DNA from: Kiritimatiellia bacterium
GTDB lineage: Bacteria > Verrucomicrobiota > Kiritimatiellia > RFP12 > UBA1067
Direction of reading: 5' to 3'
DNA: 64,000 nt
Assembly: GCA_017454745.1 (NCBI GenBank)
Contig: JAFTCL010000083.1
Location: 1-64,000, forward strand
Shown here: positions 46,076 to 63,083 of the stretch, piece after piece
Layout of the letters: the number at the start of each line of letters is the position of its first letter
Numbering within the stretch: position 1 is the stretch's first letter
Program-made: the position numbers and the translations under genes
The notes under the pieces: generated by a model
Told to the model about the DNA's origin: nothing
Seen by the model: the letters and a program-made list of their open reading frames with translations, nothing else
Databases searched by the model: none

Positions 46076-46105
46076 GTTATGAAATTCAACCGAGGGAGAC
46101 TGTTG

Positions 46106-47506
46106 ATGGAAAATCCGTTTATAGGTGTTTGTTTTGCTTTTACCGCTGCGGTGGCGTTTGCCGCACCGCCCAAGTATGTTTTTCTGTACATCGGCGACGG
46201 AATGTCCACGCCGCAGCGGATGGTGGCGGAGGAGTTCGCACGTAACGCCAACCATGGCGAGCTGGCCATGAATATGTTGCCGTACCACGCCACCACGCGG
46301 ACCAGATCGCTAACTTCGCTGATTACCGATTCGGCGGCTGCCGCCACCGCCATTGCCTGCGGGTCCAAAACCTACAACGGCGCTTTGGGTGTGGACGGAG
46401 ACAACAACCGTATTGAATCCGTCGCCGAAGTTGCCCACCGTAACGGACAGAAAGTTGGTATCGTAACCACCGTAACGATTTGCCACGCCACCCCGGCGGG
46501 ATTTTATGCGCACCGCAAAAATCGCGGTTTGTACTATCAGATCGGGTTGGATTTGATCGCGTCCGGCTTTGAATATTTCGCCGGCGGCGGCCTGGACGGA
46601 GCTTTTGACAAGAAGAAGGATCCGGAATACCGGGGCAATGTTTACGAGTTGGCGGCGCAAGCGGGTTACAAGATGGTTTGGGACAAGCCGGGTTTCACCG
46701 CGCTAAAACCCGGCGATGGCAAGGTGTGGGTACATTGTTGCGAGGGTGAGTTGCCTTATGACATCGACACCGATTTTTCAGTTTATCCCTCTTTGGCGGA
46801 ATTGACCCAAAAAGGCATTGAGCTGCTGGACAATCCCAACGGCTTTTTCATGATGATCGAGGGCGGTACGCTTGACCATTCCGGACACTCAAATGACGCC
46901 GCCGCAAATTTGCGCGACGTTCTGGCGTTGGACAAGGCGGTTCAGGTGGGCTTAGCTTTCGCCAAGGCACACGCCGACGAAACCTTGCTCATTGTTACCG
47001 GCGACCACGAGACCGGCGGCATGGCGATGGGGTTCGCAGGCACCGGTTACGCATTCCACATGGATCGGTTAGTGCATCAGAAGTGTTCGTCCGACGAATT
47101 CGCCCGGATCCTGCGGAAGGCCAAAAAGGAAAAACCGGATTTTTCGTTTGAAGACGCGAAGCCGTTGCTTACCAAATATTTCGGTTTTGTGTTCGAGGCC
47201 AAGGAAGGCGGCACTGACGACAAGGCTGCTGGCGAGAAGTTCGCCAAAGCAAACGCCGGTACCAAAGGCAATCCGATGCTCTTGCGGCCGAACGAGATCG
47301 AACAGTTGAAGGCCGGTTTTAACAAGGGTTCACTGCACCATGCCGCCCGCAAGCTGATCAGCGACAAATCGGGTGTGGGTTGGTCTTCGGGCTCGCATAC
47401 CGCGTTGCCGGTTTTGACCACCAGCACCGGCAAGTACGCCGACCGTTTTATCGGTATGTACGAGAACACGGAAATCGCGAACCGGATCAAACAACTCTAC
47501 CAATAG
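46106..47506 (+). CDS. Secreted alkaline phosphatase (PhoA family)
   Basis: This metal-dependent phosphomonoesterase has about 466 residues. A signal peptide (about 1-20, FAFTAAVAFA) leads to the family motifs YIGDGMSTPQ, ITDSAAAATA (phosphorylated serine), EGGTLDHSGHSND, VTGDHETGG and SGSHTA. Two metal sites are therefore complete. ATG 46106 follows the SD gaggga and lies downstream of a strong promoter; an in-frame ATG at 46079 would coincide with the transcription start. I see no Pho box. It releases phosphate outside the cytoplasm. Confidence 0.92.
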   Translation: MENPFIGVCFAFTAAVAFAAPPKYVFLYIGDGMSTPQRMVAEEFARNANHGELAMNMLPYHATTRTRSLTSLITDSAAAATAIACGSKTYNGALGVDGDNNRIESVAEVAHRNGQKVGIVTTVTICHATPAGFYAHRKNRGLYYQIGLDLIASGFEYFAGGGLDGAFDKKKDPEYRGNVYELAAQAGYKMVWDKPGFTALKPGDGKVWVHCCEGELPYDIDTDFSVYPSLAELTQKGIELLDNPNGFFMMIEGGTLDHSGHSNDAAANLRDVLALDKAVQVGLAFAKAHADETLLIVTGDHETGGMAMGFAGTGYAFHMDRLVHQKCSSDEFARILRKAKKEKPDFSFEDAKPLLTKYFGFVFEAKEGGTDDKAAGEKFAKANAGTKGNPMLLRPNEIEQLKAGFNKGSLHHAARKLISDKSGVGWSSGSHTALPVLTTSTGKYADRFIGMYENTEIANRIKQLYQ

Positions 47507-47513
47507 CCGTTTC

Positions 47514-48650
47514 ATGCGATTGTCAACCTGTAAGGCAAACCTGCTGGCGGTGGCGGTGATGTCGCTGTCGGTGGTGGCGATGTGGTTCATACCGGCACCG
47601 AAACAGCTGGCAAGCGACCACGGCGTTGCGGTGCGGGCCAAGGTGTTGTCAGTTGACAATTCCACGGTGCAGATGTTGGGTTTGCTGCGTTACGGTTCCC
47701 AGCATTTGACGGTTGAAATCCTTGAGGGCGCCGCAAAAGGCAGGACTTACCACGCGGTGAACGAAATCCGGGCGCAAATGGATCTTGACAAGGATTTCCA
47801 TCCCGGCGACACTGCGGTGGTGGTGTTGCAAAGCGGCGACGCCGAACAGGATTCCGCCGCGCTGGTCGCCCGAGACCAGTACCGGATGGGTTGGGGCTGG
47901 ATTTTGTTCGGCGGTTTTTGCGTACTGCTTTGCGTTTTTGGCGGTTGGGTGGGGGCAAAGGCGTTATTCAGCTTTCTGTACAGCTGCATTGTGATATGGA
48001 AGGCCGTGATACCGCTGGCGCTGCACGGCTGGCCGGTGAGCTGGACGGTCTTTGCGGCGGTATGCTGGCTCACTGCTGTCATAATGTATCTGGTGGCGGG
48101 TCTGTCACGCAAGGGCGTGTCGGCTTTCCTAGGCGCGTCGGTGGGGGTTTTGGCCGGATTGGGCCTGGCACATACGTTTGGGCGGCTGATGAAAATCAAC
48201 GGCGCCACCATGCCTTACGTACAGTCGCTGCTTTATTCGGGATTTGAATCGCTTAACTTGCAGGATGTGTTCATTGGGGCGATGGTGCTGGCCAGTTCGG
48301 GCGCGGTTATGGATCTGGCGATGGACATCGCTTCAGGCATTGACGAGGTGGCACGGCACAATCCGGAACTGTCCGGACGTGAACTCTGTCTTTCCGGGTT
48401 GCGTATTGGACGAAGCGTGGTTGGCACTATGACCACCACATTGCTGTTGGCGTACTCCGGTGGCTACATTACGTTGCTGATGGTATTCTGTACCCAGGGG
48501 ACACGCCCTTTGGATTTTTTGAACAACGCCCTGGTTGCGTCTGAAGTCGTGAAGACCCTGATAGGCAGTTTCTCGCTGATTTTTGTCGCCCCCAGCACCG
48601 CGTTGATTGCGGCGTGGATCTTCAGCATGAGAAAAAATTCGGTTAGGTAG
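47514..48650 (+). CDS. YibE/F-like membrane protein
   Basis: 378 residues. One N-terminal span is followed by an extracytoplasmic domain (about 30-120: LTVEILEGAAKGRTYHAVNE, HPGDTAVVVLQSGD). After that come seven or eight membrane spans, beginning WILFGGFCVLLCVFGGW. The run SGAVMDLAMDIASGIDEV within the membrane domain is typical of YibE/F. The family is described as putative multidrug or export-related, with no proven substrate. It starts 7 bases after the alkaline phosphatase stop, so the two are co-transcribed. Confidence 0.88.
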   Translation: MRLSTCKANLLAVAVMSLSVVAMWFIPAPKQLASDHGVAVRAKVLSVDNSTVQMLGLLRYGSQHLTVEILEGAAKGRTYHAVNEIRAQMDLDKDFHPGDTAVVVLQSGDAEQDSAALVARDQYRMGWGWILFGGFCVLLCVFGGWVGAKALFSFLYSCIVIWKAVIPLALHGWPVSWTVFAAVCWLTAVIMYLVAGLSRKGVSAFLGASVGVLAGLGLAHTFGRLMKINGATMPYVQSLLYSGFESLNLQDVFIGAMVLASSGAVMDLAMDIASGIDEVARHNPELSGRELCLSGLRIGRSVVGTMTTTLLLAYSGGYITLLMVFCTQGTRPLDFLNNALVASEVVKTLIGSFSLIFVAPSTALIAAWIFSMRKNSVR

Positions 48651-48856: not shown

Positions 48857-51800
48857 ATGAAAATGCGAAAACTGGTGTTGTGCTTATTGGCCATGGTTGG
48901 TCTGTCCGCGTTTGGCGCGGTCAGCGTCCCTATGATCATTTCACATCGCGGCGAATCTTCCGACGCGCCGGAAAATACGATGGCGGCGTTTCGGTTGGCG
49001 GTGGAACGCGGGGTGGACGCGATGGAGTGCGATGTGTACGTCACCGCCGACGGGGTTCCGGTGATCATGCACGACAAGTCGATGCGGCGCACCACCGGTG
49101 TAAATTCCAACATTACCGACCTTCCGGTTTCCACGGTTACCAACACTGCCGCCACCGCTTTCGGTTCATGGGCAAGCAGCGAGTATTCTGAAGAGAAGGT
49201 CCCGACCTTGGCGCAATATCTGGCGTTGTTGCGCGATTCCGAGATTAAGGCCGTGATTGAACTGAAGGAGGGCAACCCCAACAGCGACACTTTCATAAAC
49301 GCTGTCGCGGCGGCGGTAGTCAGCGAGGCGGCGGCCACGCCGGAGCGAGTGGTCTTCATCTCCTTCGGGGCTGATCTGGTCTCCAAGATTCGCCAGGTGC
49401 TTCCCACCTATCCGGCGCTGTATTTGGTCAGTGCCTGCCCCTCCGACGTCAATAACTTGATTGCCACGATGGCGGAGTGCCATGCGACCGGAGTCGACGC
49501 TTCTAGCGGGTTTAACGCCGATTACGTGGCCGCAGTCCGCGGTGCCGGGTATTCTTTTGTAACTTGGACCGTGGATAGCACGGCAACCGCCTACAACCAA
49601 ACCATGATGGGCGTGGACGGCATCACCACCAACACCGGTAAGGTGCTCAAGGATTACATTACTGACAAGATTGACGAACTTAACGCCGAAGAGGCCGCGC
49701 GGATGGCTGTTTACGCTGAACTTATCGAACGCAATGTCCCGGCTCGCGGCGGGTGGATGCGTGTCGATGCGGATTCTTACGCCGACGGGATGCTGATCAA
49801 TTTTGACGGTATCCGCAACCAAGGTTTGAATCAACCGCACAACGCTTCAGCGGAAAGCTGGGTCAACCTTGGTTCGTTGGGTACGGGAATTAATCTCTCG
49901 TTCACCGGCGCGATTATCTGGGAGGACGACGGTTTCTACTTCAACCAGGCCACCCGCGCGGTCACGGCGGGGAATTGCGCGCTTCCGGCGGTCTTCTCGA
50001 TGCAGTACGCGATGGACATCCCGGATATCGCCACCGCCACCCAAACCACCTTTCCGAACTACTTCTCCGTGGTCAAAAGCAAGCTGGACAATGGCGTGTT
50101 TACCCGCAACGACAACAAGCAGTGCCTGGAGATGAAACTCACCGAGTACGGGGTTTCGGAGAAACCCCGGCTGTTTGTCTACAACTGGGAAGGCCGGTAC
50201 GCGACCTTTATTCTCGATACCGCCACGGTTTACGGTACCCAAACCACCAATCTCGATTATTCGGTGTCGCGCAGTTCCGCCAAGGCGACATCCTACCCGT
50301 GGATGTTCGGTTCTGGCAGCGGTGGCAAAACCGACGGGTCCGGTTTCGCCGACCGTTACGCGAGAGGGACCTACAAGTCCATCCGTTTCTATGACCATGT
50401 GTTGACCACCGATGAGATTTCATGGAACCGGATGATTGATGAGATCCGTTTCCGTGGGGTTGATGATCCGATTATGGTTAAGGTCGCCAGCTCTGACCCG
50501 CGCTTTGAAGGTGTGGAGGGTAACGGAGATTATCTGCTCACTTCCGCGCACACTTTCTCCGCGACCAATATGGTTTACAACGGCGATGTGTTTTCTCCGA
50601 GCGGTTACGTTTTGGAAACCTGGAACCCTTCCACCGAAAGTTGGGTGGCAGCGGATGCGGTGCCTGACACCAGCTATACCTACACTCCGGGCGTTTCGCC
50701 ATCGCGGGTACGTCTGACTTGGCAGTGGACGGGTATTACCCGTATCAATGGCGTTTATGACCTTGCTACGGAGGCGGCTGAGGTTTCCGGAGATGTGCTG
50801 GTCGCCGACGGAGCAAAAATTGTTTCGTCCGCTTTCGACGAAGGGCAGACGGGGCTTACCGCCTCCGGCTCTTTTACGGTTCAGGGTGCGTTGACCTTCG
50901 ACCTGAACGGTTTTTCCGGCGGTACTTATACGCTGGTTTCCGCCGAAAATGTTGTTTTGGAAAATGGTGCCACCGTTGTCCTTTCCAATGTAGGCGAGCT
51001 GACGGGAATAAGGCGGACTTTGACGTGCACGGACAACAGCATTGTCCTGACCGTGGAGCGCGATGGAAGTTTGGACGAATTCGTCTTTAATGGGGACTTC
51101 GCCATGAATGGCACGACGGTGGGGAATGAAAACACTGCTAATGCCGGAACCAACTGGTCGTACGCCTACAATCCGGGTTTTTCTATTCCCTGGTGGAAAA
51201 CTAGTAACACTCAGTGCGGGTTGACCGTAACCAATACCCCCTGGCTGGCAATCGGTCAGACCAACGGAGGAACGTATTCATACTTTGTTCAGAGCACAGA
51301 GTGTGAACTTTCACAGAACCTGGGGACGGTGCCTGCCGGCATCTATCGTTTCTCGTATAATATCGCAGCCAGGCCAAGCCATACCCAATCTCTAATGGAT
51401 GTGACTGTAGGCAAAAACGGTACAGCGATGTTTGAGTATCGCACCGAAGAGCTGACCAATACCCTTTTCGAGTGCTATGAATCCGTCATCGTGCTGACCG
51501 AGGCTGCGAACTACGGTTTGAGTTTCAAACATCTGGTTCCGAGCGGAGACAAGGCGATCATTCTTGACGATGTGTCTTTCCGGCGCGAGGAAACTTCCGG
51601 CTGGTCATTGTCCGGCGGCAGTGCGGTGATTGACGGTACCGGTCTTGGCGCGGCGGTTCCCGGCCGCAGTTTTGTGGATGGCGACGCGACGATTCGTTCC
51701 GGTTCACTGCTAACCTTTACTCCGGTTTACGGAACTGCCACGCTTAATGTCGGCGGCACTCTAGCCGTTGAAGGTTCGGTGGCGGTGAATATCAAAGGCC

Positions 51801-54800
51801 CGGATTCCCTGTTGTGCGGCGAATATTCGCTCATCGAGGCTGGACAGTTGACAATGGCGAACGGTGCCGCGTTCTCGCTGACATCGTCCGTGGTCTTTGG
51901 CGAGAATCGCGCGGGGGTGTTGGAGTTGACCGATACCGGGTTGAAACTCCGGGTTTATCCAACCGGTAACCCGATTTACAAACGTAATAACACTTTGTCT
52001 GGCAACTACATTTTCTGGCAACCGCAGGGCAACCATTACTGGCAGACCAAGTCCAACTGGTCGTCCGGTGCCGTGCCGGGGTTTGATGCCAACCAGCGGA
52101 TTATCTTCACCGTGGCGGATTCTGTGGAAATCAACGCATATTCGAAGTGGACCAGCGGCAACGCCTATCTGTGTTTCTACAATGGCACGAAGACTCCGGT
52201 GGAGTTCTCTGCCAGCAGCGGGGATTTCGGTCTTGACACCACTTCGCAGGGCGCGTCCGGATGGGCAATTGTGCGCGGTTATGGCGTGGGCGGCTACTTG
52301 CGGGTAAACAACGGCACTTACAACGTGTCTTACGTTTATCCCAACGGCAATTCGGACGAGAGCGAATTTTCCTATGCCCGTTTCGAATTGCTCGGCGGGT
52401 CATTAACCGGTACCAAATCGTTCCTGAATTGTAATTTCGATTTGTCGCGTTCCGACGTGTTGATCGATGGTTGTAACGTCAAGTTTACCAATGACTACAA
52501 CTCAAATATCAATGCATTCACCAAACAAGTGTTCAGGTTGGTTTCCGGTTCGCTGTCGGTCAACAACTTCCAGTTGGGCGCGGGAAACTATAGTATGTTT
52601 GACGGCGAGATGTCGGGCGGCGAGCTTACTTGCGCAGGAAACTTCTCCTTTAACGGCGCTAATCCCGATGCGGCGAAATTTGTATTAAAGGGCGGTCGGC
52701 TGATCACTGACACTATCATGCGATCCAACTCCAAGGCGGTGTTTCTGATTGACGGCGGTACGTTGTCGCCATACGGCAACGCCGACGGATGGCTCTATTC
52801 CGCGAACTTCCTTACCGTCACTAAAGGCGGCACGGTGTTAGCTGATACCGACGGCCACAATGTGAGGTGGATGGCTACGGTTGCCGATGACGAGGGCGGA
52901 TATGATTTCAGTCTCAGCAAACGCGGGAACGGCACGCTTACCTTCAATGCCGACCAGTTGTTCACCGGTACTTTGGCGGTTGATTCAGGCACTCTGGCTA
53001 CGGTACACTCGCTGTCTGCCGGAGAGATTACCGTGGCTTCCGGCGCATCGTTCTCGGTGGCTAATGCCGCTATTAATACGTTGACCCTTCCGTCCATCAC
53101 ATTGGCGCCCGGAGCGGTTTTGGAGTTTGACGTCAACCCTGATGGTTGCGATGTGCTTGCTTTCACGTCCATAGACATCACATCGGCCTCGGCGGAACAT
53201 CCGGTGTATATCGACGTTTCGCTGTCCGGCATGGCGACCTTGGATGATGACACATCCTACACCTTGATTTCCCGCGGCGTGACCGATGCCTCTAAATTTG
53301 AGTTGCGCGGCGTGGCGGGATCGCTTTCGGTTAGGAACGGCGCGTTGATAATGACCAAGAGCGCCGCCACCTCCAACGAGTGGAGCGGATTGGCAAACGA
53401 CGGCGGCAAGTGGTCTACCGGCGGCAACTGGCGTAACGGAGAGCCGCCTGTCAGCGGCGGCAGCGCGGTTTTCAATACTTCAGCAGGAACTACACTGTTT
53501 GATATTACGGGGCTGGCTTTGAGCGAAATGTTTTTCGGCGAGGATGCCGGCGCGTTTGTGCACACCGGAGATGATTCGCTTACGATTTATACCTCCATCA
53601 CCAACCTTTCCAATTACGCGCAGGATATAAAAATGCCGGTGACGCTGGGAGTGGACGGGTTAGGGTTCTCGGTTTACTCCGCTGGAGACCTGATTATCAC
53701 CAATACCATTACCCCGGCTTTAAAAACTCTAGTGAAAGACGGTGGCGGCACTTTGCTGATAAACGACAACGCCATTGCTTGCCTGTCCAGATTGGATATT
53801 AATTCCGGAACTGTGAAACTGAATGGCCGCACCGGAACGGTTCTTTCAGCAAATGATGAGGGCGGGGAGATTCACATTGCCGACGGAGCAGGTCTGGACA
53901 TCAACCACGCCCCGGCCGCCAGCGGCATCGCATTGGCGTCTGATGAGGTCACTCACGGCAAGGTGATATATTTCGAGGGCAATGGCCCAGACGGCAACGG
54001 AGCACTCTACAACTCCAACAACAACACCACATGGACCGGCTATTTCAGCCATTTGGTCCTTACCGGCGATGCCAAGGTTGGCGGCGGGCACATGTCGTTG
54101 CGGACGGTTGCAAATTCCGCGTTGAACGACAATGTGATCGAAGGGCCTTATGCTTTGGACATAGCGAATCAAGTTGACGGGTTGGGCTTCACCCAGGTGG
54201 CGGTTAATTTTGATCTAAAGCGAGAGGATATCACCGGGAAGACCCAGTTGGAGGGTGCTCAGACCGGCGTCATTGATGAGGGTGTTCATGTGAAAAACGG
54301 CGGAAATGTGGTTCTCTACGGTACCACGCTTCCGGCTGGCATTCCGGTAACGGTGGACGACAATGCCACCGGTGCGTTCTCGCTGGGCTCCGGAACCTCG
54401 TACATCCAGTCGGCGTTTACCGTAGGGGGTGATGCGACGGCGGCGTTCAGTGCCAACAACACCGCCTACTTGACGGGATCGGTTACAAACAATGGGTTGA
54501 TCTCTTACACGGGAACAGGAAACATCTACTTTGATTGCGTTCCGGTTGTCGGCGGTACCTACAAGAACACCGCCGGTTCGCTTTGGTTCACCCCGGCGGT
54601 TGATTCGCCGGAAAGCCGGATTACCGTAGACTCTTCTTCAACATTGGTGTTTGGCGCCAACAGCGGTTCGGGCGCGTTACCCCGGTTCGGCGCGATTTCG
54701 GCAACCGCATCGAAGAACGTTTATTTCCGTCCGTGCGCTTCGGTGGCACTTGAGAATGATCTGTTCGACGATGTGGTCAACAAGTCCCGTTCGTCCAACG

Positions 54801-57148
54801 GTACGGTTTACATTCAGCATTCCAACCGCGGCGTTTGGATGACGCTCAACGATCGGGTTTGGGATATGTACAGCCTGTCGCTAGGCACTTCGAACATGTA
54901 TGCCAACGTGCGCATCGGCGACGGTTCGTCAATCACGGTAAGCGGTTACCGTTTCACCATGGGCAGCGTCAATCCTAAACCGTTACCCACCCGCGTTGAA
55001 ATAACCGATGGCGGCGAATTGAACTTTACCGCCGCTACAAGGACAGGCGTGTTGATTGGTTTCTATGAAGGGGTTAGCGGTTACCGCCACGAGTTGGTGG
55101 TGGACGGCGGATCGTTCAATGTCCCCAACACTTCCGTTTATGTCGGGTACTGTTCGCAGTACGCATACCTGACCCTGAATGCCGGCCTGGTGTCCGCCAA
55201 AGGCGTTAACGCCAGATGCAATATCGGCGAAAATGGCGGCGCGAACGGGACGTTCTCCACCGTCGCGCACGACGAGCGTTTTTCGCAGTATGGCGGGACA
55301 CTGGAGTTGGGGGGGAGTGGATTCGGCACAACCCACGACAAACAGGGGATGCCGCATCTTGATCTGTCCAACGGCGTGTTGCGGGCAACGGCGGACTTTT
55401 CCAACACCTACGGGATGCTGACCGCGGCGTTTGGCGAGTCGCCGGCCGGAGGCGGTAAATACACCGTTGACCTCAATGGCCATGCGGTAAATTGGAACAA
55501 CGCTTTGCTGGGCGCGGCGGATGTGTCCATCACCGGCGCGGGTTCGTTCAGCACCGACCCCAAGTTGCAGGGCATCCCTACCGGAAAGTGGGCGGTGGAG
55601 AATTCCGCGGCAAATGTTGACCTTTCCGGCGCGGCCGGATTCGCCGGAGGTTTGGAGCTTGGCGAGGATGTAAAGGCCCAGATTGATATCGGGACCACCA
55701 ATCTGGTGGAATATGCGTTGTTTACCTCCAAGACCTTCGCGACTTTGGATGATGCGTTGGCCTGTTCGAACTCTTATCCGTTGGTGGCCAGCTCGTTTAA
55801 GCAGTTGCACACTTACATGTCCGCCGGGACGATTGGCAAAGTTTATTTCTGCTACCGTGGCCAGTTCTACGTTCCGGAAAACAAAGCCGGCACATGGTAC
55901 TTTGGCGGTACTTACGACAACCAGTTGGTGTTTGACATAGACGGCGTTAACCTGATTAAGACCACTACCTACAAAGAAATCGCCACCGCCAGCGTGCAAC
56001 TCGCCGCCGGTTGGCACGATTTCCGGGTGATCGCATGGGATGACGGCGGCGGACAGGGAGCGCATCCGGATGCCGGCAATAGTTGGAGCGGTAATATGGC
56101 TTTGGGATATTCAACCGACGCTTGGTCGGAGGATAATGATCTGGCCACGGTTTATGCCCGTTTCGACACTGACACGTTGGCTATGCGCATTTCACCTGAA
56201 AGTGCTAGCCGGACTGGAGTCCGGATGAGGTTGAAAGGTGAATCCTCTATCGATACATACGCGTTGCCAACCGAGACGTATGTGTCGTATGACAACGAGA
56301 CCAACTCGCTTGACGCGGTCCACTTATTCAACACGTTCGATTTGTCCAAGAGTAATAACGTTCGTTTCGACGGTTGGTTTAAGGTGCCTGAAGAGAATGC
56401 CGGTGTATGGAACTTCACCGGACAGTATGACGACCGCATCTGTTTGGAGATTGACGGGGTCGTCGTGTTGGCGACTACGGCCTACAATGCTTCGAAGTCC
56501 GGAAGTGCCACGCTTGACGCCGGATGGCACCGTTTCGTGATATCGGTTTACGATGGCTCCGGCAGTTGGGGCGGCAAGCTGAAGGATGACAATAACTTGG
56601 TCTGCGCACTCAAGGTCAAAGCCGCAAACGCGGAGAAGACTCTGGCCTTCAACGGCGACAACTTCCGAATCGTGTTCTCGGCGGTTGACACCCAGAAAGA
56701 CCATCTCGCCGGTTTGGATGGCGTCGTTACGCTAGCTGAAGGATCGAAGCTTACCAACAACGCTTTGGGGGCCTGCCCGATTCTTGGCACATTGACCGGC
56801 ACGGGGGCGCTTGTCGGCAGGTTCGCATTCGTCGGATCTAACAGTTGCTGGCGTGTCCAGGGCAGTGGTGGAAGATTGGATGTTGCGGACTATGCCGGCG
56901 TTACCAATACTGACTTCGTAAAGCAACTTGCCAATGTCGATGTTGAGTTCCCGGACGGTGATGCGGCAATGGCGCGTTACACGCTTTGTTCCGCCGGTGA
57001 TTTGACCGCGCCGGAAGCGGAAGCGATCAAGGTTACCGCCACCGGCAAGGACGGTGAGGAGTTGCCGGGGTGGAGTGCGGCGCTGGCGGGGGACAAACTT
57101 GTCCTCATCAACCCGCATCCGCAGGGAACACTGTTCATGCTTCATTAA
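48857..57148 (+). CDS. Giant secreted glycerophosphodiesterase with LamG, beta-helix and PA14-like domains
   Basis: A 2763-residue secreted protein. Approximate order: signal peptide 1-22; glycerophosphodiester phosphodiesterase 24-265 (IISHRGESSDAPENT, MECDVYVTADG, MHDKSM); a short helical linker; LamG-like domain 310-550; a galactose-binding-like domain 735-915 (VFNGDFAMNG to AIILDDVSF); a long beta-helix region 920-2300 with autotransporter-type strand repeats (SKRGNGTLTF near 1353, VKDGGGTLLI near 1625); two PA14-like domains near 2310-2405 and 2495-2580; a final strand region ending GTLFMLH. There is no C-terminal barrel, LPXTG or lipobox. SD aaggag lies before ATG. It may cleave glycerophosphodiesters at the cell surface or in host lipids. 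Confidence 0.87.
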   Translation: MKMRKLVLCLLAMVGLSAFGAVSVPMIISHRGESSDAPENTMAAFRLAVERGVDAMECDVYVTADGVPVIMHDKSMRRTTGVNSNITDLPVSTVTNTAATAFGSWASSEYSEEKVPTLAQYLALLRDSEIKAVIELKEGNPNSDTFINAVAAAVVSEAAATPERVVFISFGADLVSKIRQVLPTYPALYLVSACPSDVNNLIATMAECHATGVDASSGFNADYVAAVRGAGYSFVTWTVDSTATAYNQTMMGVDGITTNTGKVLKDYITDKIDELNAEEAARMAVYAELIERNVPARGGWMRVDADSYADGMLINFDGIRNQGLNQPHNASAESWVNLGSLGTGINLSFTGAIIWEDDGFYFNQATRAVTAGNCALPAVFSMQYAMDIPDIATATQTTFPNYFSVVKSKLDNGVFTRNDNKQCLEMKLTEYGVSEKPRLFVYNWEGRYATFILDTATVYGTQTTNLDYSVSRSSAKATSYPWMFGSGSGGKTDGSGFADRYARGTYKSIRFYDHVLTTDEISWNRMIDEIRFRGVDDPIMVKVASSDPRFEGVEGNGDYLLTSAHTFSATNMVYNGDVFSPSGYVLETWNPSTESWVAADAVPDTSYTYTPGVSPSRVRLTWQWTGITRINGVYDLATEAAEVSGDVLVADGAKIVSSAFDEGQTGLTASGSFTVQGALTFDLNGFSGGTYTLVSAENVVLENGATVVLSNVGELTGIRRTLTCTDNSIVLTVERDGSLDEFVFNGDFAMNGTTVGNENTANAGTNWSYAYNPGFSIPWWKTSNTQCGLTVTNTPWLAIGQTNGGTYSYFVQSTECELSQNLGTVPAGIYRFSYNIAARPSHTQSLMDVTVGKNGTAMFEYRTEELTNTLFECYESVIVLTEAANYGLSFKHLVPSGDKAIILDDVSFRREETSGWSLSGGSAVIDGTGLGAAVPGRSFVDGDATIRSGSLLTFTPVYGTATLNVGGTLAVEGSVAVNIKGPDSLLCGEYSLIEAGQLTMANGAAFSLTSSVVFGENRAGVLELTDTGLKLRVYPTGNPIYKRNNTLSGNYIFWQPQGNHYWQTKSNWSSGAVPGFDANQRIIFTVADSVEINAYSKWTSGNAYLCFYNGTKTPVEFSASSGDFGLDTTSQGASGWAIVRGYGVGGYLRVNNGTYNVSYVYPNGNSDESEFSYARFELLGGSLTGTKSFLNCNFDLSRSDVLIDGCNVKFTNDYNSNINAFTKQVFRLVSGSLSVNNFQLGAGNYSMFDGEMSGGELTCAGNFSFNGANPDAAKFVLKGGRLITDTIMRSNSKAVFLIDGGTLSPYGNADGWLYSANFLTVTKGGTVLADTDGHNVRWMATVADDEGGYDFSLSKRGNGTLTFNADQLFTGTLAVDSGTLATVHSLSAGEITVASGASFSVANAAINTLTLPSITLAPGAVLEFDVNPDGCDVLAFTSIDITSASAEHPVYIDVSLSGMATLDDDTSYTLISRGVTDASKFELRGVAGSLSVRNGALIMTKSAATSNEWSGLANDGGKWSTGGNWRNGEPPVSGGSAVFNTSAGTTLFDITGLALSEMFFGEDAGAFVHTGDDSLTIYTSITNLSNYAQDIKMPVTLGVDGLGFSVYSAGDLIITNTITPALKTLVKDGGGTLLINDNAIACLSRLDINSGTVKLNGRTGTVLSANDEGGEIHIADGAGLDINHAPAASGIALASDEVTHGKVIYFEGNGPDGNGALYNSNNNTTWTGYFSHLVLTGDAKVGGGHMSLRTVANSALNDNVIEGPYALDIANQVDGLGFTQVAVNFDLKREDITGKTQLEGAQTGVIDEGVHVKNGGNVVLYGTTLPAGIPVTVDDNATGAFSLGSGTSYIQSAFTVGGDATAAFSANNTAYLTGSVTNNGLISYTGTGNIYFDCVPVVGGTYKNTAGSLWFTPAVDSPESRITVDSSSTLVFGANSGSGALPRFGAISATASKNVYFRPCASVALENDLFDDVVNKSRSSNGTVYIQHSNRGVWMTLNDRVWDMYSLSLGTSNMYANVRIGDGSSITVSGYRFTMGSVNPKPLPTRVEITDGGELNFTAATRTGVLIGFYEGVSGYRHELVVDGGSFNVPNTSVYVGYCSQYAYLTLNAGLVSAKGVNARCNIGENGGANGTFSTVAHDERFSQYGGTLELGGSGFGTTHDKQGMPHLDLSNGVLRATADFSNTYGMLTAAFGESPAGGGKYTVDLNGHAVNWNNALLGAADVSITGAGSFSTDPKLQGIPTGKWAVENSAANVDLSGAAGFAGGLELGEDVKAQIDIGTTNLVEYALFTSKTFATLDDALACSNSYPLVASSFKQLHTYMSAGTIGKVYFCYRGQFYVPENKAGTWYFGGTYDNQLVFDIDGVNLIKTTTYKEIATASVQLAAGWHDFRVIAWDDGGGQGAHPDAGNSWSGNMALGYSTDAWSEDNDLATVYARFDTDTLAMRISPESASRTGVRMRLKGESSIDTYALPTETYVSYDNETNSLDAVHLFNTFDLSKSNNVRFDGWFKVPEENAGVWNFTGQYDDRICLEIDGVVVLATTAYNASKSGSATLDAGWHRFVISVYDGSGSWGGKLKDDNNLVCALKVKAANAEKTLAFNGDNFRIVFSAVDTQKDHLAGLDGVVTLAEGSKLTNNALGACPILGTLTGTGALVGRFAFVGSNSCWRVQGSGGRLDVADYAGVTNTDFVKQLANVDVEFPDGDAAMARYTLCSAGDLTAPEAEAIKVTATGKDGEELPGWSAALAGDKLVLINPHPQGTLFMLH

Positions 57149-57161
57149 TTCCAAAAATGTT

Positions 57162-57190
57162 GGGAGAATCCGGGATGCCCGGATTCTCCC
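57162..57190 (+). terminator. Perfect hairpin before the chromate transporter genes
   Basis: A 13-base perfect stem (57162-57174 with 57178-57190) and a 3-base loop, 13 bases after the giant gene stop and 13 bases before the chrA GTG start. There is no T-run, so it may be a factor-dependent terminator, mRNA stabiliser or attenuator rather than a classical intrinsic terminator. Confidence 0.55.
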
Positions 57191-57203
57191 GAAGGTTGTC
57201 GGT

Positions 57204-57788
57204 GTGTTTAAAGATAATACGCGCTCAAAACCGGAGCATCGGCTGTTAACGTTGGCTTGGATCTTTTTTTACATTTCTTCGGTCACCCTGGGCGGGGGAA
57301 TGGCGATGTTACCGGTTATGCAAAGGGAATTCGTCGAAAAGCGAGGTTGGCTGACCGACGATGAAATGGTTGACGTGGTGGCGGTGGTGCAATCGCTGCC
57401 GGGAACGATCGCGGTTAACATGGCGGTATTGCTGGGCTACCGGATTTGTGGTTTTCCCGGAGCGGTTGTGTCGGCGTTCGCATCGGTAGTGGTGCCGTTT
57501 GCGGCCATTGTGTTTCTGGCTGCCGGACGTTCGTTGTTGGCTGATTCGCCGACTCTCGACCATATTTTCCTTGGCGTTCGCGCAGGGGTGTCGGCGCTGA
57601 TTCTGCTCTCTGCCGTCAAACTGTCTAAAAGCGTGTTAAAGAAGCCTTTGGCATGGTTTCTGGGCGCGGCCAGTTTTATCGCTTGCGTGATATTTGAAAT
57701 CGATATGACGCTGGTGATTATGGCTGGGTTGGCGGTAGGGTTGGCGTTGCTGGCGGTAAATGCGTTCCGTCGGGGGGTGAAACAATGA
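57204..57788 (+). CDS. chrA: Chromate transporter, N-terminal half (ChrA family)
   Basis: A 194-residue membrane protein with six or so spans. The family signature SSVTLGGGMAMLPVMQREF is followed by WLTDDEMVDVVAVVQSLPGT. Short-chain ChrA proteins are encoded as adjacent pairs; this is the first of the pair. GTG 57204 is chosen because an aagg SD lies eight bases upstream and the conserved region starts about 15 residues in; longer readings run back into the previous gene. The stop overlaps the next ATG (ATGA). Substrate is inferred from family; in anaerobes it may not be chromate. Confidence 0.85.
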   Translation: MFKDNTRSKPEHRLLTLAWIFFYISSVTLGGGMAMLPVMQREFVEKRGWLTDDEMVDVVAVVQSLPGTIAVNMAVLLGYRICGFPGAVVSAFASVVVPFAAIVFLAAGRSLLADSPTLDHIFLGVRAGVSALILLSAVKLSKSVLKKPLAWFLGAASFIACVIFEIDMTLVIMAGLAVGLALLAVNAFRRGVKQ

Positions 57789-58369
57789 GTCTGTTGCAGT
57801 TGTATCTGCTGTTTGCGAAAGTGTCAACGCTGACCTTTGGCGGCGGTTATGCGATGATTCCGTTGTTTCAGGATGAGATTGTGGTAAAGCACGCATATAT
57901 GGACGCGCCAGAATTCGCCAATCTGGTAGCACTGGCACAGGTCACACCGGGGCCGTTAGGGTTGAACGCCGCTACGTTTGTGGGGATGAATCAAGCCGGG
58001 ATCCCCGGCGCGTTGTGCGCAACGCTGGGGATGGTGACACCGTCATTTTTGTTTACTGTAGCCGCCGCAATTTTTTTGCGGCGAATGGCGAAATCGAAAA
58101 ACCTTGGTACGGTGCTTTCCGGTATCCGTCCTTGCGTACTGGGAATCATTGCGGCGGCAGTGGTGTTCTTTGCCGAGACCTCGGTGCTTACCTGCAAGTT
58201 ACGGGAACTGCTGCATAACCCTGCCAGAGGTATCTGCTGGCAGGGTGCGGTTGTTTTCGCGGTGGTGCTGGCCGTACAGTTGCGGTGGAAGCGGCTCAAC
58301 GTGGTGTGGCTGCTGGCAATCTCTGCCGTGCTGGGGTGGCTGCTGTTCCTTTGTTCGCGCAACTGCTAA
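57785..58369 (+). CDS. chrA: Chromate transporter, C-terminal half (ChrA family)
   Basis: 194 residues with the mirrored signature VSTLTFGGGYAMIPLFQDEI and ALAQVTPGPLGLNAATFVG, then several spans. It overlaps the previous gene by four bases and forms the usual bicistronic short-chain ChrA pair, thought to assemble as antiparallel partners. Its 3' end overlaps by four bases the 3' end of the convergent epimerase gene. No terminator is visible between the convergent genes. Confidence 0.87.
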   Translation: MSLLQLYLLFAKVSTLTFGGGYAMIPLFQDEIVVKHAYMDAPEFANLVALAQVTPGPLGLNAATFVGMNQAGIPGALCATLGMVTPSFLFTVAAAIFLRRMAKSKNLGTVLSGIRPCVLGIIAAAVVFFAETSVLTCKLRELLHNPARGICWQGAVVFAVVLAVQLRWKRLNVVWLLAISAVLGWLLFLCSRNC

Positions 58370-59538
58370 AGATCGCGGGTCAGTTCCCAGGTTTTCACCA
58401 GCATCCGCGGAATGTGGAACGGACCTTTGAAGAGGTTGCCCTTTGCGGGTTGCGCCACTGTGCCGTCCCGATGGAGGTAACCGTACCATTCGGGGTGTTT
58501 CAGGTCTTTGAAATGCGCCCACGTCCAATCGCTGACTAGCTGGTGCATCTTGCGGTATTTGGGCTTGCGGGTCAAGCGGTAGGCGTAAGCCGAAGCAATG
58601 ATAGCCTCACAGTGCGGCCACCAGAATTTCATATCCTGCTCGTAGCACTGAGGCGGCAGATTCCGGCAATCCTTGAAGGAAACGATGCCGCCGAATTGTT
58701 TGTCCCAACCCCAAGCCCACGACCAATCCAGTATTTGCAGCGCGGTGGAGAGTAGTTTCTGATCGTTGCGGGCCGTGGCCACCTCCATTAAAAACCAGGC
58801 GGTTTCAATGCAGTGGCCGGGATTGATCACCCGTCCGGCGAGAGTGTCGATGAACTCGCCGTTCGGGCCGACCGTCTCCAGCAGTGCCTTGAATTCGGGA
58901 TGGATGAAGTAACGGGTCAAGGAATCGATGGACTCGTCAATCTGCCGATCCAACAACGGGTCGTCCGAAATCTGCTTGAGCACATTTGCCACGTTGATGA
59001 GAATCATTGTCAGCGAGTGCCCTTGGGCGGCAAATGCCGGTTCGTATTTTGCCGGCATCCATTTGTTAGGGTGCGCGGTGAATTTCCGGATTCGCTTGAA
59101 CAGGTTGACGGCTTTTCTGCCCCATTTACGGTCGCCGCTGGCCAACGAATATTCCGCATAGGCAAGCGCGGCGAAACACTCGGAAAAAACGTAACGGCGT
59201 TTTCTGAGGCCGATGCCGTCGGCGGTGACCTCGAAAAACGCGCGTCCGTCTTGGTCGAAACAATGTTCGTCAAGAAATTCGCAGCAACTGCGACTTGCGA
59301 CCAAATATTCCGGATTCTTTTCCAGCCGGTTGTAGGCATATGCGCAAATCCAGCCGAACCGGCCTTGGAACCAAACGGATTTAGTAGTGTCCATTAACGA
59401 TCCGTCGCGGTTTAGACAGGTATAGACGCCACCGTGCGAACGATCCCATCCGTATTTCAGCCAGAACGGCATGACGTTGTCAAGAAACTCCGTCTTATAG
59501 ACCAAATTCCATTTATGCCAATAGGGGGACTGTTTCAT
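58366..59538 (-). CDS. N-acylglucosamine 2-epimerase (AGE/RenBP family)
   Basis: It interconverts N-acetylmannosamine and N-acetylglucosamine, the step after sialate cleavage. The 390-residue (alpha/alpha)6-barrel protein has family histidines in NPGHCIETAWF, WWPHCEAI and GPFHIPRM, and conserved FQGRFGWICAYAY. In the AGE superfamily cellobiose 2-epimerases look similar, but the adjacent nanA and sialate symporter make the acylglucosamine epimerase role much more likely. It replaces the NanE/NanK route of Enterobacteria. The gene begins 3 bases after nanA and closes the operon. Confidence 0.88.
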   Translation of the reverse strand: MKQSPYWHKWNLVYKTEFLDNVMPFWLKYGWDRSHGGVYTCLNRDGSLMDTTKSVWFQGRFGWICAYAYNRLEKNPEYLVASRSCCEFLDEHCFDQDGRAFFEVTADGIGLRKRRYVFSECFAALAYAEYSLASGDRKWGRKAVNLFKRIRKFTAHPNKWMPAKYEPAFAAQGHSLTMILINVANVLKQISDDPLLDRQIDESIDSLTRYFIHPEFKALLETVGPNGEFIDTLAGRVINPGHCIETAWFLMEVATARNDQKLLSTALQILDWSWAWGWDKQFGGIVSFKDCRNLPPQCYEQDMKFWWPHCEAIIASAYAYRLTRKPKYRKMHQLVSDWTWAHFKDLKHPEWYGYLHRDGTVAQPAKGNLFKGPFHIPRMLVKTWELTRDL

Positions 59539-59541
59539 TGT

Positions 59542-60438
59542 TTACCTATATCCGATTTTTTTCAGTCTGGAGACGCAATCTGCCTTGGCGGCTTCGGAAA
59601 GCGCGACGTTCGGGCGACGGACGTCGCCTAAGTCCAGATCCCAAACTTTCATCATCGCCTTACCTCCGGCGACACCGCCGTACTGCACCAGAATGTCCAC
59701 AATGTCGCAAACCTTCTTCATGCCGGTCTGCGCCTTTTTAAGGTCACCCTTTTTGACCGCGTCCCAAATTTTGTAGTAAACCCCGGCGGCATAATTGTAG
59801 GTCGAGCCGATGGCAGATTGCGCCCCGCACGCCACCGCGCCGGCGAACCATTCATCGATGCCCCAGGTGATATCGTACTTCCCGCCGCAGGCGCGAAGGC
59901 AACGCTGATACATATAGAGGTCGGCGTAGTTGAATTTGATTCCGGCGAGATTGCCGATCTTGCCGTCCGCCTTTTCAAGGAACGCCTGCATATCGAAGTT
60001 AACCCCGGACATTCCGGTGTGGTAGTAGTAAAACGGCAGTTTTGTGCTGGTCTGCAACGCTTCGTTCAGGTAGTCAATCAGAGCATCGATAGAACCCGGC
60101 TTGAAGAAATTCGGCGGAACGATGGAGGTGGCGTCCATGCCGCATTCTACCGCGTGGGCGCCGAGTTCCTGCACGTCCGGGATTGCTAACGCGCCGATGT
60201 GCGCTATCAGGTACAGTTTGCCTTTGGCGGCTGCCGTCCAGGCGTCGAACAGGGCCTTGCGTTCGGCTACGGAACAGCAGATGCCCTCTCCGGTGGTGCC
60301 GGAAATGTAAACGCCGGTAACATTCTGCCGCACCAGCAGGTCGGCTTGCTTGGATACCAGCGCGAGATTGACGCTGCCGTCGGCGTTGAACGGCGTGTGG
60401 GCAGCCGCGATTAATCCCTTAAGTTTCTTGATGGCCAT
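59542..60438 (-). CDS. nanA: N-acetylneuraminate lyase
   Basis: It splits N-acetylneuraminate into N-acetylmannosamine and pyruvate in the cytoplasm. 298 residues of the DHDPS/NAL TIM-barrel family. Residues 47-52 are GTTGEG (carboxylate binding), Tyr139 lies in FYYYHTGMSG, and Schiff-base Lys168 in AGIKFNYAD. The Tyr-Tyr-His-Thr context distinguishes NanA from dihydrodipicolinate synthase. ATG overlaps the symporter stop (TAATG), so they are translationally coupled. The operon context with a mutarotase/symporter and an AGE epimerase confirms the sialic acid assignment. Confidence 0.93.
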   Translation of the reverse strand: MAIKKLKGLIAAAHTPFNADGSVNLALVSKQADLLVRQNVTGVYISGTTGEGICCSVAERKALFDAWTAAAKGKLYLIAHIGALAIPDVQELGAHAVECGMDATSIVPPNFFKPGSIDALIDYLNEALQTSTKLPFYYYHTGMSGVNFDMQAFLEKADGKIGNLAGIKFNYADLYMYQRCLRACGGKYDITWGIDEWFAGAVACGAQSAIGSTYNYAAGVYYKIWDAVKKGDLKKAQTGMKKVCDIVDILVQYGGVAGGKAMMKVWDLDLGDVRRPNVALSEAAKADCVSRLKKIGYR

Positions 60439-63035
60439 TATTGCTCTCCGGATGGTGTTTGCGGTTTCAGGGTTTTAAGGGTAAGACCGTTCAGGTCATG
60501 CCCTTTTTCACGAAAGATGATACTGGTGGTCCAGGCCACGGCCACGCATACCGCCAGCCCGATACCGCCCAGAAGGAACGGATGGAACTTGAGTCCGAAC
60601 ACGTTGCAGTGCAGAATTTCGCAGCTGAAACAGACGAAGTAGTTGGCCGCAAGGCCCAGAACCGCCGCGACACCCTTGATACGCGGCATGAATACGCCCA
60701 TAAAGAAGAGTCCCGTCAAGCCTGCCGTCAACATGGCAATGTACTTGTTGAAGTTGTCGAAAAGCGCGCTCGACTCCATACGTGCGAGTGTGAGCGCCGC
60801 CATAACGCCCATAATGCCGACTACATAGGTGCAGATCTGACCACAACGGATTTGCGTCTTTCCTGGGATGTCGGGTTTGAAGCGCTTGATGAAGTCCGTG
60901 ACGAGTGCCGTAGAAGCGGAACTCAGGTTTGCGGACAAGGTCGAGATCGTCGCCGCGAAGACCGCCGCGATTACGAGTCCCGCGAGCCACGGCGGCATCT
61001 CCGTTGCCATAAAGGTCGGGAGAATCGAATCGCCTTTCGGCATCGTCACGTCCATCGTTTCCGGGTGCGTGTGATAGAACGTAAAGAGGGCCATGCCGAT
61101 TCCGTAGAACACCACTTGCGCGAATACACTCATGCACCCGTTGAACCAGAGTGAACGTTTGGTGGCGTTTTCGTCCGGCGTCGCGATGTAGCGCTGAATA
61201 ACGCACTGGTCGCTCGTGTAGGAAGAGAGATTGGAGATGAGGCCCTGAACCGCTACCACCCAGAAGACTGGTTGCGTGAAGAGAAGGCGGAAATCCCACA
61301 TCGCGGTCTTGTTGTAGGTACTGGCCACGTTCCAGAAAGTCGAGAAATGCGTACCGTCCGAGCCGGTCTTCATGATTAGGAGTACCAGCACCGACACCGC
61401 TCCGCCCATAAGAACGATACCCTGGACGAAGTCGGACCAGATGACCGCCTCAAGCCCGCCGAGCGAGCAATAAATCATCGTGAGAACGCCACAGATGAGG
61501 ATGCAGGCGTCGATGGATATTCCCGTCACGGCGTTGAGCGCGATTGCGGGGAGCAGCGTCACCACAGCGACGCGGCAGACCATGAAGACAACGAACGCAG
61601 CAGAACCGAAGAGCCGCACGCCGAGATTGAAGCGCTTTTCCAGGTATTCGTAAGCGCTCGTAATCCCAAGCCGGCAGAAGAACGGCAGATAAAAGTAGAT
61701 CGCCACAGGTGCCATGCCAATGATGAAGAACGCCATCACGAAGTACCGCCAATCCTGCAAATACGCCTGCGTCGGAATCGCGATGAAGGTGATCGAGGAG
61801 AGCATCGTCGCGAAAATACTCATTCCTGCAACATACCACGGAATACGCTTTCCGCCGCGGAAGTAGTCGTTCACATCCTTCTTCTTGCGGATGAAGTACA
61901 CCGCCATTGCGACCATAAGGAGCGCATAGACGCCGACGACCGCCCAGGCCGCCGCGCCGAACCGACCGGTTTTCTTGAAGCTCGCGACACTTACCGCATC
62001 AGTCCGCATTTTAGGCGCGACCTCGCCACCCGCGATGAGAATAGTGTATTGTTCGGGAGTTTTGCCGGGGCGAATCGCCGTCGCCGCTCCGCAGCGCGGT
62101 TTGTCGCCCGGCGCGATTTTACCGTATTCGCACCACGCATCCGTCACGCAGTTGTAGGCGAGTACTTTCCTCTGCCAACCGAGCTTCACGGGATTGGTTT
62201 CGGTTGAGCCGTTTATCGCGCGGTCAATCCACCCCTTCTCGCCAAATCCGCCGACCAAGAGGATGTGTTGGTGCCCGCTCGGCAGAAACGCCGCGCCGAT
62301 CGATGTGGTGTGCTCTGGGAGCGGCGAAATGGCTTTCTTTTTACCCGACGAAATGGTAATGGCGTAGCCATCGGCAAGCGGCAGCTTTGTCTTTACGTCA
62401 TATCCGCCATATACGACAAGCAGTTTTTCCTTCTGGTCGCCGTTTTGGATGGCGGCAACCATCTGCTCGCGTGCCGGGTCGGCGATTTCGCTGACAAGCA
62501 CCCACTCCCCATGCTTTCGAATCGCCGGATCGGGGTCTAACGCCTTGAGCATTTCGAGAGACCACACCTTCTTCGACGCAACGACATAGACCTTCTCGCC
62601 GTCGGCCGCCGCCGCACCCATCGACAGCGGCATGTGAAGAGACGGAAGACTTGAGACGCGAGGAGTGCCGTTATCTATAGTAAGCAGAAACGCCTCTGTA
62701 AAAACCGTCTTTCCGTCCGTTCCCCCCGCGCAGAAGATACCCTTTGGTGTCTCGCAACAGACTCCTTCGGCGACGGGATACGGAAGCTCACCGATTTTCT
62801 TCCACGTCCCGTCCGGTTCACGGACAGTTATTTCCGAGTTATACACCTTCTTCCCGTCAACGAAATCGCTGCCACCAGCGACGACGAACCTCCCGTCCGG
62901 CAGAAAACCGTGGAACGGGCGGGCGACGGTGGCTGGCATAGTCTCCGTCGCTTTCCATTCAATGCGTACCGGAGCCGGAAAAACCGGCCATGACATCGCC
63001 ACGGCAAAAAAACAGCCTAAAAGAAATTTTCCCAT
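60438..63035 (-). CDS. Sialic acid mutarotase (kelch) fused to sodium/solute symporter
   Basis: An 865-residue fusion. The signal peptide (MGKFLLGCFFAVAMSWPVFPA) precedes a kelch-type beta-propeller (about 25-370: RPFHGFLPDGRFVVAGGSDF, IFCAGGTDGKTVF, HILLVGGFGEKGW) of the cyclically permuted NanM/YjhT mutarotase type. After that come about 13-14 spans of the SSS family (DYFRGGKRIPWYVAGMSIFA, SLGGLEAVIWSDFVQG). The mutarotase would sit outside the membrane and present the preferred sialate anomer to the transporter. ATG 63035 follows SD gaggga; an in-frame start at 63071 lacks this. Sialic acid specificity is inferred from nanA downstream and the mutarotase domain. Confidence 0.88.
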   Translation of the reverse strand: MGKFLLGCFFAVAMSWPVFPAPVRIEWKATETMPATVARPFHGFLPDGRFVVAGGSDFVDGKKVYNSEITVREPDGTWKKIGELPYPVAEGVCCETPKGIFCAGGTDGKTVFTEAFLLTIDNGTPRVSSLPSLHMPLSMGAAAADGEKVYVVASKKVWSLEMLKALDPDPAIRKHGEWVLVSEIADPAREQMVAAIQNGDQKEKLLVVYGGYDVKTKLPLADGYAITISSGKKKAISPLPEHTTSIGAAFLPSGHQHILLVGGFGEKGWIDRAINGSTETNPVKLGWQRKVLAYNCVTDAWCEYGKIAPGDKPRCGAATAIRPGKTPEQYTILIAGGEVAPKMRTDAVSVASFKKTGRFGAAAWAVVGVYALLMVAMAVYFIRKKKDVNDYFRGGKRIPWYVAGMSIFATMLSSITFIAIPTQAYLQDWRYFVMAFFIIGMAPVAIYFYLPFFCRLGITSAYEYLEKRFNLGVRLFGSAAFVVFMVCRVAVVTLLPAIALNAVTGISIDACILICGVLTMIYCSLGGLEAVIWSDFVQGIVLMGGAVSVLVLLIMKTGSDGTHFSTFWNVASTYNKTAMWDFRLLFTQPVFWVVAVQGLISNLSSYTSDQCVIQRYIATPDENATKRSLWFNGCMSVFAQVVFYGIGMALFTFYHTHPETMDVTMPKGDSILPTFMATEMPPWLAGLVIAAVFAATISTLSANLSSASTALVTDFIKRFKPDIPGKTQIRCGQICTYVVGIMGVMAALTLARMESSALFDNFNKYIAMLTAGLTGLFFMGVFMPRIKGVAAVLGLAANYFVCFSCEILHCNVFGLKFHPFLLGGIGLAVCVAVAWTTSIIFREKGHDLNGLTLKTLKPQTPSGEQ

Positions 63036-63083
63036 TCCGTTCCCTCGGAGAAACCAAAAACAAACCAACATTTACTATTTACA

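Follow-up and report, generated by a model that had tools for sequence, protein, structure and literature searches.

A glycerophosphodiester phosphodiesterase (GDPD) domain heads a protein of 2763 residues at positions 48857-57148 (+; coordinates exact) of the window, by which we mean the whole 64,000-nucleotide stretch of DNA analysed here. Is the domain still an enzyme there, what does the scaffold behind it do, and where is such a protein sent? An earlier note had read it as an intact enzyme on a very large exported protein of surface type and had set it against GDPDs that are normally compact. Both statements were borne out, the surface location as a prediction from sequence: among the best 80 loci, the nearest GDPDs outside the lineage had open frames with a median length of 263 aa, and a few were multidomain proteins that reached about 1090 aa.

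The enzyme head and its scaffold

The following parts were distinguished in the protein:

48857-48925, +: N-terminal Sec-type signal peptide, aa 1-23 (MKMRKLVLCLLAMVGLSAFGAVS); start positions align in the orthologues
48926-49660, +: GDPD catalytic TIM barrel, aa 24-268 (PF03009, invariant residues, AlphaFold2 and Foldseek, dN/dS)
49754-50476, +: LamG-like (concanavalin A-like) domain, aa 300-540 (PF13385, weak)
50477-50746, +: small beta domain, aa 541-630, ending x-L-T-W-x-W
51062-51586, +: galactose-binding-like domain, aa about 736-910 (sequence reading)
51587-55426, +: long beta-repeat region of beta-helix type, aa about 911-2190 (TIGR02601/PATR repeat)
55796-56086, +: PA14-like domain 1, aa about 2314-2410 (YDNQLVFDIDG-type motif; fold match)
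56321-56656, +: PA14-like domain 2, aa about 2489-2600 (YDDRICLEIDG-type motif; fold match)
57125-57145, +: C-terminal tail GTLFMLH, aa 2757-2763, immediately 5' of the stop codon (tail pattern)

The barrel matched PF03009 over aa 30-259 (E = 2.1e-41; 143.1 bits against a cut-off of 23.6), and its closest solved structures by sequence were those from O. antarctica (3qvq) and T. tengcongensis (2pz0). A complete active site had been claimed, and all seven key residues (H30, R31, E57, D59, H72, E135 and K137) were found in place and invariant in the 19 aligned sequences; in the PF03009 family these residues serve catalysis and metal binding, and none had been lost in the close homologues. AlphaFold, run with the 19 aligned sequences, modelled the barrel with a pLDDT of about 80-97, and Foldseek aligned it with 3qvq at E 4e-16, a target TM of 0.88 and an rmsd of 2.2 Å. 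Values of dN/dS of 0.10 and 0.11 between orthologues indicate that the domain is under strong purifying selection. At the level of sequence and predicted fold the barrel is catalytically intact, and enzymatic activity is predicted for it. The domain might instead serve mainly as a binding or structural module, a lectin-like pseudo-enzyme head on an adhesin, as could be suggested by its place at one end of a long scaffold that resembles an adhesin and contains LamG- and PA14-like domains; however, the conservation of every catalytic and metal residue across divergent homologues and the strong purifying selection both speak against such a role, which we regard as very improbable.

The scaffold was more difficult to assign. 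The region described earlier as LamG-like gave E 0.034 and 14.7 bits with PF13385, below the cut-off of 27.6, and a profile search of the region against PDB sequences gave no match. The same model matched the domain in 12 of 14 homologues, weakly in each case (best 3.7e-4), and one relative of the same family (L057) combines a GDPD with three clear LamG_3 domains (E 4e-62). The resemblance therefore stands, whereas the window copy falls short of PF13385 membership. The LamG-like domain and the small beta domain together form one repeating unit, present in three copies in L039 and L044-L046. The long beta-repeat region was confirmed by a TIGR02601 repeat at aa 1352-1380 (or 1381) with 24.9 bits, above the cut-off of 19.85; a PATR match in the region reached 18.4 bits, under the PATR cut-off. 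With 45 PATR matches, the protein's own genome makes prominent use of giant beta-repeat proteins. No HMM matched the galactose-binding-like domain, in which AlphaFold2 placed strands at a pLDDT of about 40-70. The two PA14-like domains named in the earlier note likewise had no HMM match; what stood was a fold match of a low-confidence model (pLDDT 46) to an anti-sigma factor domain of C. clariflavum (6qe7/6qdi, E 4e-6). We take 6qe7 to be a PA14-type domain pair. The PA14-like and galactose-binding-like assignments are weak, as are the models from which they were drawn.

Relatives, module exchange and gene neighbourhood

Full-length orthologues that keep the whole architecture were found in two genomes, one of the same genus (91% identity) and one of another genus (75%). 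In the comparison with the latter, the GDPD was 86% and the LamG-like domain 85% identical, and most of the scaffold 67-79%. The own genome (1335 aa) and several relatives (up to about 2300 aa) hold further GDPD-LamG fusions, with identities of 36-41%; three LamG-like units are the rule among them, and the longer ones have a different beta scaffold. GDPD-LamG heads thus sit on at least two different scaffolds, and the scaffold of the window protein (aa 727-2763) was found without a GDPD in L052 and L053, so that head and scaffold are exchangeable modules. In the window protein, an enzyme head that is conserved yet replaceable is mounted on a surface-type scaffold that also carries other heads; it is a new version of a known design. 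Across 84,980 scanned species genomes, all such fusions among the best 80 loci belonged to this lineage, and by these sequences the GDPD-LamG fusions are a small family. The named relatives of the closest loci were genomes labelled Verrucomicrobia, Kiritimatiellae or Lentisphaerae, many of them from ruminant rumen, omasum and rectum; the host is an uncultured member of the Kiritimatiellae (Verrucomicrobiota) of ruminant-gut type. Our literature search for GDPD-PA14 or GDPD-SLH fusions returned nothing relevant.

The own genome holds 10 GDPD matches altogether. On sequence reading, one lies behind an apparent nitrilase/carbon-nitrogen hydrolase-like domain (L002 529-2217; 562 aa), and another is followed by an apparent HAD/phosphomannomutase-like phosphatase domain (L005 718-2310, -; 530 aa).

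Two genes precede the GDPD gene:

46079-47506, +: alkaline phosphatase gene (PF00245, E 1e-69), a neighbour outside the system
47514-48650, +: gene of a YibE/F-family membrane protein (PF07907, E 7e-72), between the phosphatase and GDPD genes

An alkaline phosphatase had been reported immediately upstream. The phosphatase is genuine, but it is not immediately adjacent, as the YibE/F gene lies between. The two enzymes could form a phosphate-scavenging pair, induced together on phosphate limitation, in which the surface GDPD would free glycerol-3-phosphate and the phosphatase would release its phosphate. Such a pair would agree with the export signals on both proteins and with the common strand of the two genes, which holds for the window as well as the same-genus genome. 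However, outside the window's own genome the linkage was seen only in the same-genus one (L040/L059) and was missing beside the 75% orthologue of the other genus and at every other GDPD-LamG locus examined. The YibE/F gene and a gap of 206 bp that holds promoter-like sites (consensus matches only) separate the genes, and the three PhoB-box-like matches in the window equal chance level (3.2 expected). We consider the pair unlikely, and on these grounds the two-step release of glycerophosphate and then phosphate proposed in the earlier note is not supported. A conserved operon with the alkaline phosphatase was rejected, the linkage being restricted to the genus.

Directly downstream of the GDPD gene lie two chromate-transporter half genes (57054-58369). 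As the ORF called mechanically from 57054 overlaps the GDPD gene, its actual start probably lies further inside. They are followed on the reverse strand (58366-63071) by a catabolic cluster of sialic-acid type, with members of the GlcNAc 2-epimerase and DHDPS/NanA families and a sodium symporter fused to NANM-like repeats.

A C-terminal tail shared by giant proteins

The window protein ends in HPQGTLFMLH, and its last seven residues fit the pattern G-T-(hydrophobic)4-R/H/K/Q-stop. Similar C termini follow different last domains in other proteins (GTLMMVR, GFIFILR, GTVFIIR and GFTVFVR, beside GTLFMLH here). At the DNA level, a pattern of G-x-four hydrophobic codons-R-stop occurred 22 times in the own genome, against 2 occurrences of the reversed pattern. 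At the ORF level, 852 kb of the own genome with 544 mechanical ORFs were counted, using a crude signal-peptide rule. The strict tail was present in 13 of the 45 ORFs of at least 1000 aa, in 4/88 of those with 600-999 aa and in 1/411 shorter ones (Fisher p about 2.5e-10 for ORFs of at least 600 aa against the shorter ones, with counts that are not independent, as some ORFs are paralogues). Among the internal heptamers of large ORFs it was found once in 128,866. In these 0.85 Mb, a looser rule gave about 27 other large ORFs, with unrelated domains, outside the window's own contig. Beside the window protein, tail-bearing loci include G000 C7, C18, C22, C26, C31, C67, C72 and C76 (L147-L186) and L187-L205.

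The window encodes another giant exported protein (16354-23286; 2310 aa), which ends in VGTMVILL, a variant of the tail. Elsewhere in the own genome (G000 C18 26412-31766; L186/L184), a tail-bearing protein of 1784 aa begins, on sequence reading, with an SGNH-esterase-like domain, so that an enzyme appears to head a second giant protein of this kind.

The stricter G-T pattern was not confined to the own genome (13 cases). It was counted 18 times in G001, 32 times in G019 and 22 times in G035; members of other families in the class had it too (G159, 27; G257, 19; G269, 9), with 0-1 for the controls in those genomes and 0-1 in most other Verrucomicrobiota genomes. We tentatively propose that this seven-residue tail is a previously undescribed sorting or anchoring signal of Kiritimatiellae, one that would replace PEP-CTERM and autotransporter barrels at the end of giant exported proteins, the window GDPD protein among them, and be recognised by some as yet unknown machinery for secretion or attachment.

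The main rival to this proposal is that the tail is no signal at all and represents the last beta-strand of a common end-domain, with which it would have been inherited. Many tails of the own genome do follow similar-looking beta-rich ends (…L-x-L-x-x-x-x-G-T), and some tail proteins are related across their C-terminal halves. In G159, however, the tails follow unrelated domains, one of them a choice-of-anchor Q domain and one a LamG domain, and some are reached through Pro-containing linkers (YESPPPAGTLILIR, YELPPQKGTFILIR); within the GDPD-LamG family the tail comes after either LamG units or beta repeats. In addition, T at -6 (21/29) and R at -1 (15/29) recur in the tail set, although neither played a part in its selection. 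On this evidence an inherited end strand seems to us less likely than not, while still a serious candidate. The C-terminal structure prediction (pLDDT 46) was too poor to show how the tail is placed.

The signal reading was also examined against the sorting systems already described. No Pfam or NCBIfam model matched the tail, and none for a Por_Secre_tail or TIGR04183-type domain of the type IX system (T9SS) matched the protein or the isolated C termini, in searches up to E = 10. SprA was searched for in four genomes with no match, and the control genomes gave none either. PEP-CTERM identity was rejected for the window protein, which has no PF07589 match (the four PEP-CTERM matches of its genome are all elsewhere); such proteins are rare in tail-rich genomes. 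Ten tail-rich Kiritimatiellae genomes had 0-5 PEP-CTERM matches, against 7-71 in ten tail-poor ones (Mann-Whitney p = 8e-5, kinship ignored). A classical T5a autotransporter was rejected as well, there being no C-terminal PF03797 barrel in the window protein or its genome; this barrel was matched in five of the ten tail-poor genomes and in none of the ten tail-rich ones. The exosortase PF09721, the obvious candidate for a reader of the tail, was present in all twenty genomes, tail-rich and tail-poor alike; its occurrence is therefore unrelated to that of the tail and says nothing for or against such a role. The literature search returned nothing relevant on such a tail or on Kiritimatiellae sorting signals.

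Proposed function and comparison with known systems

We judge it reasonably likely, from sequence, that the protein is an exported glycerophosphodiester phosphodiesterase displayed at the surface. The surface location is what we infer for a protein in which no known anchor (T5 barrel, PEP-CTERM or T9SS tail) was found. The signal peptide would carry the protein across the inner membrane, and the GDPD would use a divalent metal to hydrolyse glycerophosphodiesters, releasing sn-glycerol-3-phosphate and an alcohol, as expected for its family from UgpQ/GlpQ enzymes. Attachment to glycans or cell-wall material is the probable role of the LamG-like, galactose-binding-like and PA14-like domains, and the beta-repeat region would be a long stalk. 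Likely substrates would be the glycerophosphodiesters of other gut organisms, with glycerol-phosphate teichoic acid, glycan glycerophosphate groups and deacylated lipids among the candidates. The C-terminal tail may direct the protein to a sorting or anchoring route that it would share with dozens of other giant proteins.

That uncultured gut Kiritimatiellae mount a phosphodiesterase of phospholipid/teichoic-acid type on a giant, putatively glycan-binding scaffold suggests that they use glycerophosphodiesters outside the cell. The tail is of greater consequence than the GDPD part and is most worth following up, in gut bacteria that appear to lack the customary C-terminal signals for exit and anchoring. 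Should the tail prove to be a sorting signal, it would define the surface-protein set of these poorly understood bacteria and allow a direct search for the machine behind it.

As in the PEP-CTERM/exosortase system (PF07589, PF09721), the tail would be a C-terminal signal common to many exported proteins of one genome, but it lacks the PEP box, the membrane helix and the basic cluster. T5 autotransporters have the same TIGR02601/PATR beta-repeat passengers, whereas their C-terminal PF03797 barrel is missing in the ten tail-rich genomes.

For the head, the closest known systems are the GDPDs of UgpQ/GlpQ type (PF03009; 3qvq, 2pz0 and B. subtilis GlpQ, 5t9b), with the same fold, the HRG, PENT, ExD, HD and ELK motifs and the same metal site; the 3qvq structure contains bound sn-glycerol-3-phosphate. 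These are stand-alone enzymes of about 250 aa, in contrast to the window GDPD at the head of a 2763-aa exported protein. A GDPD head on a giant exported protein is an unusual design, yet an explicable one. Precedents for multidomain extracellular GDPDs exist. The beta-1,3(4)-glucanase 7ww4/7wwc also places a GDPD-fold domain in a multidomain protein and is GDPD-like in its N-terminal part (sequence match over the first 235 residues; Foldseek alignment of 554 columns). It differs in its length of 480 residues and its named glucanase activity, and we know of neither a beta-repeat nor a PA14 scaffold in it. The gp155 spike of phage phi812/K (9euf, 9f5m) likewise bears a GDPD on a large extracellular architecture, but it is a virion protein of a staphylococcal phage with other domain neighbours, and its GDPD is C-terminal, whereas that of the window protein is N-terminal.
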